Below are positions 681 to 2,900 of a stretch of DNA of 26,070 bases, one piece after another. The stretch spans positions 1 through 26,070 of the IMG/VR virus record IMGVR_UViG_3300035189_000011, one strand, 5' to 3'. The notes under the pieces were generated by a model, which was not told the origin of the DNA, searched no databases, and saw only the letters and a program-made list of their open reading frames with translations. The DNA is from a virus. Each line of letters opens with the position of its first letter. The stretch's first letter is position 1. The translations under genes were made by a program, and so were the position numbers.

Positions 681-707
681 GAAAAAAAGCCCGCTCAACG
701 GCAGGCT
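681..707 (-). terminator. Leftward terminator, strand-specific
   Basis: In leftward RNA a seven-pair stem (707-701 with 694-688, including one G-U pair) is followed by seven U (687-681). On the plus strand the G-U becomes a C-A mismatch and no U run follows, so it should work only leftward. It stops transcripts from the repressor operon before the leftward promoter. Confidence 0.65.
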
Positions 708-747
708 CATGGATCAGATCAGGCGTGGAAGGTGAATCTCAGGAATG

Positions 748-773
748 AAAAAGCCCGGCGCTGGGCCGGGCTT
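748..773 (-). terminator. Terminator of the repressor-PIN operon
   Basis: A nine-bp perfect stem (751-759 with 765-773, five-base loop) followed leftward by a U run. It lies 20 bp beyond the PIN gene stop and is the first of two tandem leftward terminators. Confidence 0.8.
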
Positions 774-793: not shown

Positions 794-1321
794 TCAGGGC
801 TCTATTTCGCCATGGAAATTAAGCTGCTCTGGATTGGCCTCTATGCTCGCGAGGGACCTTGCCAGGATGCCGACTGTACCTGCTCGCCTATATATCTGCT
901 TATCGTGAGTCCATATTTCTTTTGCGCCGGCCGCGACCGAAATGGCAAGAATTTGCCGGTCGTACTTGAGTTTTGCCATCGTAGAATCAGGATCGAGCAT
1001 CTTCATTTCCTGATTGCTGACGAGCATCGCACATTCAATTGCGGCCAACTGATCAAATGGGGATATTTCGACGCATTTGACGCTGTTAATGATGTCGAGG
1101 TGCTTCTGGTAGCTATCCCTGCGAATGCCTATCAGGTACTCGGCCAGAACCGGTGCCGGCAGCACCACGACACCTTTTATCGCTTCGATCCTCTCTACAA
1201 GCGCCTGAGCTCGCATAAATGCATTGTCAACGATCTTGTCAGTCTCTGGATCTCGAAGGTCTTTGGCTCCTTCGTTTTGCATGATCTGGACTAGGACATT
1301 TGTATCTATGACGATCTTCAA
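794..1321 (-). CDS. PIN-domain nuclease (VapC-like fold)
   Basis: A 175-aa protein opening with the PIN signature MKIVIDTNVL. The acidic set expected for a metal-dependent PIN ribonuclease is present: D6, E61 (LAEYL), D121 (KYDRQIL) and D140 (WTHDKQ), so catalysis is plausible. It is longer than a typical VapC (about 130 aa). It is the last gene of a leftward operon repressor - 246-aa protein - PIN, with a 2-nt gap to the gene before it and strong terminators after it. Expression with the repressor suggests a role in the lysogen: toxin, superinfection exclusion or anti-phage defence by RNA cleavage. PIN family membership is clear; the biological role is inference. No classical short VapB-like antitoxin is next to it. 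Confidence 0.85.
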   Translation of the reverse strand: MKIVIDTNVLVQIMQNEGAKDLRDPETDKIVDNAFMRAQALVERIEAIKGVVVLPAPVLAEYLIGIRRDSYQKHLDIINSVKCVEISPFDQLAAIECAMLVSNQEMKMLDPDSTMAKLKYDRQILAISVAAGAKEIWTHDKQIYRRAGTVGILARSLASIEANPEQLNFHGEIEP

Positions 1322-1323
1322 TC

Positions 1324-2064
1324 CTAACCCCTAGTTTCCAAAATACTGGAATGGGTGCTAGACATATCATTCCAGTCCACCCCTCCCGCGGCTTTGAGCC
1401 TGGCTATAGCTTCCTTGAAGCCAATATCTTCCAGTCTGATGAACGAGCTGATCTTCAGCTTTACCAGCTTCCAAGCGCCATCACTGGAGCGCACCCATTC
1501 TCCATCTCCATGCAGGCGCACCGGCTTAAAGAGTAGTTGAGCGAGCCGCTCCGCAACTGCGACATCCGCCTCACAAAGAAGGCTTTCATTATCAGCGCCC
1601 TCAATTCTGACCGGCACCGTCTCATCCTTGCCGCCAACACTATAAAGCCGCCCCTGAATACTGGATGGCTTGATTATCCTCAGGGGCGGATCTTCAAGCT
1701 TGACGCTGGGGAACTGAAATATTTTAGCTCCTTCAGATCTGATTGATCCGCCAGTGCAGTCGGCGGACATAAATTCAGAAAGCGTCTTATAGGCAGAGAT
1801 CGCCGTCTTCTTCCCCAGTCCGCCAGAAACTTCCCGGACCTGATTCATAACCAGCGGGAAAGCTTTTTCCTCGATATAAGATTTCAGTTGGGCTGACCCG
1901 GCCTCAACGCAGTCAAAATGAACCGAGTCCTCGCAGCCATAGAAGGCGGACAGGGCCCGCAGGTAGTCCGCAAGCCGCTTCATGGAGAGTTGGCCGGGAG
2001 TCAGGTCGTCGAGGTAAAGCGTTAACTCTTTCATGGCTTGATTATAGTCATGCGTCCATTTCAA
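1324..2064 (-). CDS. Unknown 246-aa protein paired with the PIN nuclease
   Basis: A 246-aa soluble protein with no signal peptide or membrane segment and no family I recognise. The N-terminal half looks helical (LSMKRLADYLRALSAFYG region); the centre and C-terminus look beta-rich and charged. The start ATG at 2064 has no clear Shine-Dalgarno, which fits co-transcription with the repressor gene ending 23 nt upstream. The stop is 2 nt before the PIN gene, so the two are probably translationally linked. By position it could be an antitoxin, sensor or partner of the PIN nuclease, as lambda rexA/rexB follow cI, but nothing in the sequence proves that. Confidence 0.75.
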   Translation of the reverse strand: MKWTHDYNQAMKELTLYLDDLTPGQLSMKRLADYLRALSAFYGCEDSVHFDCVEAGSAQLKSYIEEKAFPLVMNQVREVSGGLGKKTAISAYKTLSEFMSADCTGGSIRSEGAKIFQFPSVKLEDPPLRIIKPSSIQGRLYSVGGKDETVPVRIEGADNESLLCEADVAVAERLAQLLFKPVRLHGDGEWVRSSDGAWKLVKLKISSFIRLEDIGFKEAIARLKAAGGVDWNDMSSTHSSILETRG

Positions 2065-2087
2065 TCACTATAGACAATCGTCAGTCC

Positions 2088-2837
2088 CTACAAATCCCCG
2101 CCGCGCCAGATAACCCGGCCCAAGATACGGTGCTCATAGATCTCGCCGTCAGGCAGGCGCTCGTCGGCGTATTTGATTTTGTCCGGATTGTCGCTACGGA
2201 TGATCCAGCCATCGAAGTCGGATTTCACCAGGCGCTTGACGATCGTCCCTCGGTCCTGGCTCTCAATGACAAATATGTGCCCATCTGCCGGCTCGATGCG
2301 AGACTCGTCAACGAGCAGCACATCATGATGGGTGATTGTCGGCCACATGCTGTCTCCATCGGCGTAGATGATCTTCAGGTTCTTCGGCTTCGCGCCTTTA
2401 ATGCGCAACCATTCACGCTTGAAAGCCAGGCCGCCGCGCAGCGACACATGCGGGTTGTCGTGGCCTGAACCGGCGGCGGCATAAGCGTAGTACTGCGGGA
2501 TTATGACGTGGGTGTCTTCATTGACGTCCGCTTTCTCCAGCGCCCCGGTCAGCTCTGGAGTCGCGGCCGGTGGCTGAGGGGCGGCAGGAGCATCCTGAAC
2601 ATCCCCACGACCGTACTCCAGCCACTCCACACGAACCCTCAGCGCCGTAGCCACCGCGAGCATCTTGGCGCCGCCTGGCATTGATTCGCCGTTCAGCCAT
2701 TTACTGCTGGCCTTTGGCGTCACTCCAGCCATTTTTGCCAGGCGAGCGCCAGCGCCCCATTCCTGGATTTCATTCAGCGCAAGCGCCTGCTTGAGCCTCG
2801 CGACAAAAGCATTTCGTATTTCTTCGATATGAACCAT
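2088..2837 (-). CDS. Phage repressor (C2/CI type, S24 autoprotease)
   Basis: A 249-aa repressor that should hold the prophage silent. An N-terminal XRE-like helix-turn-helix lies around residues 10-70 (ARLAKMAGVTPKASSKWLNG). An Ala/Pro-rich linker follows, then a LexA/S24 C-terminal domain with cleavage pair A122-G123 (YAYAAAGSG), nucleophile S163 (DGDSMWP) and general-base K201 (TIVKRL). This is the RecA-stimulated self-cleavage design, implying SOS induction. The chosen start at 2837 has no Shine-Dalgarno but lies downstream of a plausible promoter (-10 TATTAT at 2886-2881). The upstream in-frame ATG at 2882 overlaps that -10 and is rejected. A 13-bp operator covers the chosen start codon, suggesting autorepression. 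Two accessory genes follow in the same operon. Confidence 0.9.
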   Translation of the reverse strand: MVHIEEIRNAFVARLKQALALNEIQEWGAGARLAKMAGVTPKASSKWLNGESMPGGAKMLAVATALRVRVEWLEYGRGDVQDAPAAPQPPAATPELTGALEKADVNEDTHVIIPQYYAYAAAGSGHDNPHVSLRGGLAFKREWLRIKGAKPKNLKIIYADGDSMWPTITHHDVLLVDESRIEPADGHIFVIESQDRGTIVKRLVKSDFDGWIIRSDNPDKIKYADERLPDGEIYEHRILGRVIWRGGDL

Positions 2838-2900
2838 GGGTTCATTAACGCATGGGCTTGCATGTACTTTCAGTTCCGACATAATATGTACTGTAAGTTC
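2831..2900. promoter_or_regulatory. Right operators (OR), three sites
   Basis: Three 13-bp sites: GAACCATGGGTTC (2831-2843, a perfect palindrome containing the repressor start codon), GTACTTTCAGTTC (2864-2876) and GTACTGTAAGTTC (2888-2900). The last two are 24 bp apart centre to centre and flank the overlapping -10 elements of the divergent promoters. All match GWACYNNNRGTWC. Which of repressor or Cro binds each site is not visible. Confidence 0.7.
2858..2885 (+). promoter_or_regulatory. Rightward early promoter (PR-like)
   Basis: TTGCAT (2858-2863), 16-bp spacer, CATAAT (2880-2885), start near 2892. The spacer contains one operator and a second lies at the start point. It drives cro and the early rightward genes. 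Confidence 0.55.

Follow-up and report, generated by a model that had tools for sequence, protein, structure and literature searches.

The window analyzed here is a 26,070-nt stretch of viral DNA (positions 1 to 26,070 of IMG/VR record IMGVR_UViG_3300035189_000011) that encodes anti-repressor, replication, terminase, portal, head and tail-sheath genes, and our subject is a pair of adjacent genes within it. On the minus strand, a CI/S24 repressor is followed by a 23-nt gap (2065-2087), an open reading frame (ORF) for a protein we call the partner (1324..2064; 246 aa with TTG 2064 as start, but probably 236 aa with ATG 2034), a 2-nt gap, a gene for a 175-aa PIN-domain nuclease (794..1321), and two hairpins resembling intrinsic terminators (751..773 and 687..708). 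This arrangement agrees with an initial annotation of the window, which had placed two co-oriented genes 3' of the repressor, 23 nt and 2 nt apart, with two terminators beyond the PIN gene. The minus-strand hairpins, located by a hairpin scan, are plausible and statistically unexceptional, with 4 matches in the region vs 2.5 ± 1.5 in shuffles. Against relatives with dS > 1.2, dN/dS is 0.02-0.07 for both ORFs in those comparisons that allowed its calculation. Such strong purifying selection shows that both are selected protein genes rather than ORFs arising by chance.

We searched viral and bacterial genome contigs as well as phages and plasmids and obtained 74 loci (some contigs having been fetched twice) in addition to plasmid copies, with relatives down to ~20% identity in Pseudomonas, Halomonas, beta- and alphaproteobacteria and one acidobacterial genome. 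The downstream protein matches the Pfam PIN family (PF01850, E 2.4e-8), and all four acidic residues credited to it by the initial annotation are present as D6, E61, D121 and D140, of which, across 45 relatives, E61 is nearly invariant and the other three never vary. The fold of one PIN relative matches VapC and FitB (Z 11-12.7), the PIN protein being longer (~175 aa) than the roughly 130-aa VapC chains in these fold matches. With its PIN fold and acidic catalytic residues, this half of the pair falls within the definition of VapC. A PADLOC 2.0.0 scan returned a weak match of the PIN protein to PDC-M11A (E 0.0019), confined to the PIN part of that 486-position model. At one locus (L035:3629-4870), a different PIN protein, of the PIN_12 family, lies directly upstream of the pair.

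Neither the partner nor any of its 48 relatives has a Pfam family, and no RHH, AbrB, HTH or Phd-type DNA-binding domain was found by Pfam and NCBIfam searches of the partner or by Pfam searches of the 48 relatives. An AlphaFold2 model of the partner built with these relatives (pLDDT 82.9, pTM 0.49) contains an alpha/beta domain at residues 11-117 (1714..2034, also delimited by the alignment), a five-strand barrel at residues 129-210 and a low-confidence tail. The barrel matches SSB and PriB chains over residues 130-213 (VIA-align Z 8.5-9.5) and is predicted to be an SSB/PriB-like OB-fold, which on this match and its invariant columns we place at residues 130-212 (1429..1677); its best-conserved motif is GGKDET (144-149), accompanied by W190 and W198. 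The earlier description of a partner with no recognised domain is therefore true by Pfam but incomplete, as structure prediction shows an OB-fold. The N-terminal alpha/beta domain is modeled with pLDDT mostly 75-92 and has conserved Y34, G43 and G56-S57; no known family was found for it, its fold not having been searched separately.

The top viral-library match of the partner in Foldseek (E 4e-9, 260 columns) was a protein whose name refers to DUF6575, a domain reported in a defence system (PMC9519451). Pfam detected no DUF6575 (PF20215) in the partner, in its relatives or in five genomes or records that carry the pair, and when DUF6575 was considered as a parent family, the proteins of three genomes that carry it were unlike the partner. 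The PADLOC 2.0.0 scan also gave no convincing match for the partner and its relatives (best E 0.0018, in single members). N-terminal extensions in L092 and L093 contained no domain and are probably due to over-long ORFs, and partner matches in L096 and L103 were dismissed as chance, the local match in L096 falling in a methyltransferase-like protein. One Pseudomonas genome (L102:1513-1872) has a fragment made up of the OB-fold and tail alone, with no N-domain or PIN, which may be a remnant or possibly a free antitoxin.

Conservation and modeling both point to the C-terminal tail of the partner (residues 213-246; 1327..1428) as a proposed plug for the PIN active site. The tail consists of a helix, Trp231, a second helix and Arg245. 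This arginine is identical in 48/48 relatives and scores 4.32 bits vs a mean of 1.79 for the rest of the tail, with variable columns on either side of it, while Trp231 is kept in 44 of the 48 and the Trp-Arg spacing is 14 (Trp-x13-Arg) in 47 of the 48. In VapB11, the inhibitory tail buries a conserved Trp in the PIN domain of VapC11 and pairs a conserved Arg with Asp5, Glu44 and Asp116 through salt bridges (PMC6265470). The partner tail has its elements in this same order of helix, Trp, helix and Arg. The partner had been annotated as having no VapB-like features, a statement that this VapB-type Trp...Arg tail with its invariant Arg shows to be mistaken or at least too narrow. Partner and PIN are in frame in L025, and a read-through model was made of this locus with the stop read as Gly. 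The pTM was 0.78 for this model vs 0.49 for the window partner alone, and the pLDDT of successive tail blocks was 91/89/82/55 vs 76/68/57/51, which supports docking of the tail on the PIN domain.

The two genes are also strictly linked in their distribution. Wherever enough downstream sequence was available, only a few bases separate the partner stop from the PIN start, and the two often overlap; L021 and L060 are the exceptions. Linkage was also assessed in genomes not picked for the pair, 398 from Proteobacteria and 298 from Pseudomonas, with G001, the centre of the samples, included in both. An intact partner was present in 9/398 and 6/298 genomes, respectively (14 distinct genomes, about 2%), and each of these 14 has a PIN gene directly downstream, so the partner was not found widely without PIN, an outcome that the initial annotation had named as counting against its proposal. 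PHROGs assigns no known function to either half (partner, PHROG 19868, 1.7e-59; PIN, PHROG 21691, 3e-36). In the reverse direction, a search of 149 Pseudomonas genomes found the PIN subfamily (E < 1e-46) twice, both times with the partner, the best of the other PIN proteins reaching 9e-7. Pairwise distances of partner and PIN are correlated across 32 non-redundant pairs (Mantel r 0.83, null maximum 0.22), indicating that the two have stayed together. A DNA search with the Proteus copy found no E. coli homologue. We agree with the earlier proposal of a genuine two-gene module of toxin or defence type that differs from standard VapBC.

Decay of the pair is one-sided. The PIN gene is broken or lost in L075, L021 and L060 while the partner is intact or nearly so, and no broken partner beside an intact PIN was seen among the loci examined, a pattern consistent with a PIN toxin restrained by the partner tail. 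A truncated PIN remnant is left behind the partner in L021. On a Sinorhizobium megaplasmid (L075:5705-6263), a frameshift splits the PIN gene next to an intact partner, and partner matches of the same identity occur in three related isolates. At L060:4989-6362, a partner copy with an altered C-terminus is followed by an HNH-type gene in place of PIN, possibly a displacement of the toxin gene. An apparent natural partner-PIN fusion in L073 was rejected as the product of sequencing errors by comparison with its near-identical copy L072; these two contigs come from one genome, and the many single-base indels that set them apart near a contig end are assembly or sequencing errors.

The unit shared between relatives is ~1.28 kb long, as DNA similarity at 77-81% identity spans window positions ~748-804 to 2081-2083 and does not continue on either side, where the flanks are unrelated. 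Upstream blastn edges fall at 2081-2083 in five unrelated contexts, and one pair of relatives extends the similarity to 2112. This cassette lies behind repressors in L012, L016, L017 and L015, divergent from a repressor in L019, close to tail and lysis genes at the end of a prophage in L014, and on a chromosome beside a gamma-glutamyltranspeptidase gene in L018. A more distant copy (L038, 64%) adjoins an integrase-like gene, and solitary copies occur on plasmids of Methylobacterium, Cupriavidus and Pleomorphomonas. Since the same unit occurs in unrelated contexts and carries a conserved -10 element, the pair is a mobile cassette with a promoter-like element of its own rather than a repressor-slot gene, and the repressor slot is one landing site among several.

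This distribution bears on two explanations tied to lysogeny. The initial annotation had assigned the genes to a rexAB-like slot, which fits the window and several relatives but not the copies that adjoin an integrase, point away from a repressor, or lie at prophage ends, on plasmids or on chromosomes. Like RexAB of lambda and Pseudomonas putida, the pair consists of two genes behind a prophage repressor, directly behind it in the window and ahead of terminators. RexAB, however, includes no PIN, and the P. putida system is composed of a DNA-binding protein, RexA, and a membrane protein and effector, RexB (PMC12894663), whereas here an OB-fold protein precedes a PIN nuclease. Judged by its sequence, the pair is not RexAB, as its second gene encodes a PIN nuclease and not a RexB-like membrane effector, and a lysogenic exclusion pair of this type, analogous in position alone, is highly improbable given that the cassette occurs away from repressors too. 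A non-toxic PIN would instead process RNA or act in regulation, in either case for the control of lysogeny, with the OB subunit binding its substrate and targeting the nuclease to it. An OB-fold partner could indeed bind RNA, and the cassette is repressor-adjacent in the window and several relatives, but we regard this explanation as unlikely, as a tail with an invariant Arg speaks for inhibition, the PIN gene is lost before the partner, and the cassette is independent of the repressor.

The regulatory DNA of the cassette occupies 2035..2083 on the minus strand, as marked by the blastn edges, the -10 element and the near-unchanged codons 1-10. TATAAT (2041-2046) lies upstream of ATG 2034 at a distance of 6 nt. 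Of 50 distinct upstream regions, 11 have a -10 hexamer (5/6 matches or better) 5-8 nt ahead of the start codon, vs 0.72 ± 0.84 in shuffles (maximum 4). In the ORF counted from TTG, codons 1-10 are almost constant between relatives, with changes falling mostly in the residues just before ATG 2034, while the coding part is synonymously saturated (dS > 1.2). The -10 placement and the DNA-level conservation upstream suggest that TTG 2064 is probably not the true start, that the partner begins at ATG 2034, and that the Pseudomonas copies have in common a leaderless or near-leaderless mRNA from the cassette's own promoter; this reading remains a prediction, as no good -35 element was seen upstream of the -10. 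Some other lineages have Shine-Dalgarno-like sites in place of this arrangement. A candidate inverted-repeat operator overlapping the -10, TATAGT-N18-ACTATA, was rejected because it did not exceed shuffles (0.13).

Among known systems, the pair most resembles VapBC and FitAB, with which it shares a VapC/FitB-like PIN fold with four acidic residues, an upstream antitoxin gene that abuts or overlaps the toxin gene, and a tail with a Trp and a conserved Arg. It differs in having a partner of ~236-246 aa in which an alpha/beta domain and an OB-fold take the place of a small RHH, AbrB or HTH domain, and in a Trp-Arg spacing of 14 rather than the 8 of VapB11. The layout is that of a type II toxin-antitoxin system, with co-directional, tightly linked genes, the proposed antitoxin first, and a mobile distribution. 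On sequence grounds the partner lies outside the VapB definition, as it has no small DNA-binding domain, and the pair most likely works like VapBC without being filed as VapBC. DarTG is a mobile anti-phage toxin-antitoxin system whose large antitoxin is also of a non-DNA-binding type, but its ADP-ribosyltransferase and macro domain are unrelated to PIN and OB-fold proteins. PD-T4-10, one of several toxin-antitoxin-like systems reportedly shown by Vassallo et al. in 2022 to defend against phage, is by description similar in having two overlapping ORFs with an upstream antitoxin and a downstream toxin. To our knowledge, no PIN toxin has been described together with an OB-fold antitoxin; the open-access literature yielded no paper on such a pair, which is weak evidence of absence. 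Neighbourhood analysis by Makarova et al. (2009) predicted PIN-associated antitoxins (COG2442, COG2886, COG2880, COG1753 and MerR-like) that likewise form gene pairs with PIN toxins, but these are small DNA-binding proteins and none was described with an OB-fold (PMC2701414).

The pair is strictly linked and co-divergent, keeps the PIN acidic site and has moved among prophage sites, plasmids and chromosomes, and we consider it likely to be a mobile two-gene toxin-antitoxin-like module that combines a VapC-like PIN toxin with a new antitoxin type. The downstream PIN protein would be an RNase toxin. The upstream partner would be synthesized first, its C-terminal tail wrapping the PIN domain and placing the Arg amid the catalytic acidic residues in the manner of VapB/FitA-type antitoxins. 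Because the PIN start codon abuts or overlaps the partner stop, translational coupling would balance synthesis, and the toxin would be produced in the presence of its inhibitor. More speculatively, the OB-fold and N-domain may replace the usual antitoxin DNA-binding domain and serve as a sensor or nucleic-acid-binding platform, and engagement or loss of the partner, upon phage infection or loss of the element, could release PIN to cut RNA and stop growth, resulting in abortive infection or addiction.

Several points weigh against this toxin-antitoxin reading. R245 sits in the low-confidence block (55) of the read-through model. That model joins the two proteins artificially through a short linker, and the models compared are of different sequences (L025 vs the window partner). 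For these reasons the exact geometry of the contact between R245 and the PIN active site is only inferred. The decay asymmetry is based on three cases. The partner has no recognized DNA-binding domain, which leaves classical autoregulation unsupported, and few neighbourhoods are defence-like while several are housekeeping.

If a toxin-antitoxin module is correct, a VapB plug in the form of a Trp...Arg tail can apparently sit on a wholly different platform with a nucleic-acid-binding type of fold, and such a platform would equip a PIN toxin with a sensor in place of a repressor. This predicts that one Arg and one Trp decide neutralization and that the OB loop decides triggering. As a compact cassette moving between temperate phages and plasmids, the pair is a good candidate for overlooked inter-phage defence, and we judge an anti-phage role plausible, with roughly even chances, addiction being the main alternative. 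Since the partner has an OB-fold, sensing of nucleic acid or a replication protein is the most attractive guess for the trigger. An elaborate version, in which an OB-fold antitoxin-sensor detects phage single-stranded nucleic acid or a replication protein and pulls the Arg tail from the PIN RNase to cause abortive infection, would constitute an uncharacterized class of immunity carried by phages, new in platform, trigger and leaderless expression alike, and we hold it only tentatively.

The neighbourhoods and the OB-fold also speak to two further explanations that overlap with or restrict the toxin-antitoxin module. In a sensor-effector defence complex, the OB-fold would sense phage ssDNA, RNA or SSB and switch on PIN, with the Arg tail acting as a releasable catch; the complex would be stable and antitoxin turnover unneeded, so this explanation overlaps the one we favor. 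An unusually large antitoxin, an OB-fold with Z 9.5 to SSB/PriB, its highly conserved GGKDET loop and the carriage of the pair near the repressor of temperate phages all fit such a complex, as does its position beside DarTG in Herbaspirillum (L023:3233-6253), where a DarT-DarG operon is followed 54 nt behind by partner and PIN on the same strand to form tandem toxin-antitoxin modules. However, OB-folds are common and the fold alone shows no function, and many copies lie in non-defence contexts, leaving the chances of this complex somewhat short of even. A plain addiction module that stabilizes prophages and plasmids, with no defence role, follows toxin-antitoxin logic and fits the plasmid copies in three genera as well as several prophage contexts, but such modules would not explain the OB-fold or the chromosomal copies beside housekeeping genes, and we find this alternative possible though doubtful. 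At L036, the pair lies near type I restriction specificity genes.

The repressor that precedes the pair in the window (2088..2891, minus strand; upstream end ~2891, start codon not fixed) is CI-like, with HTH and S24 peptidase domains (Pfam HTH_3 1.8e-5, Peptidase_S24 4.9e-14), and matches the transcriptional repressors of PHROG 4 (3e-42). It is a neighbour of the mobile cassette and lies outside it.
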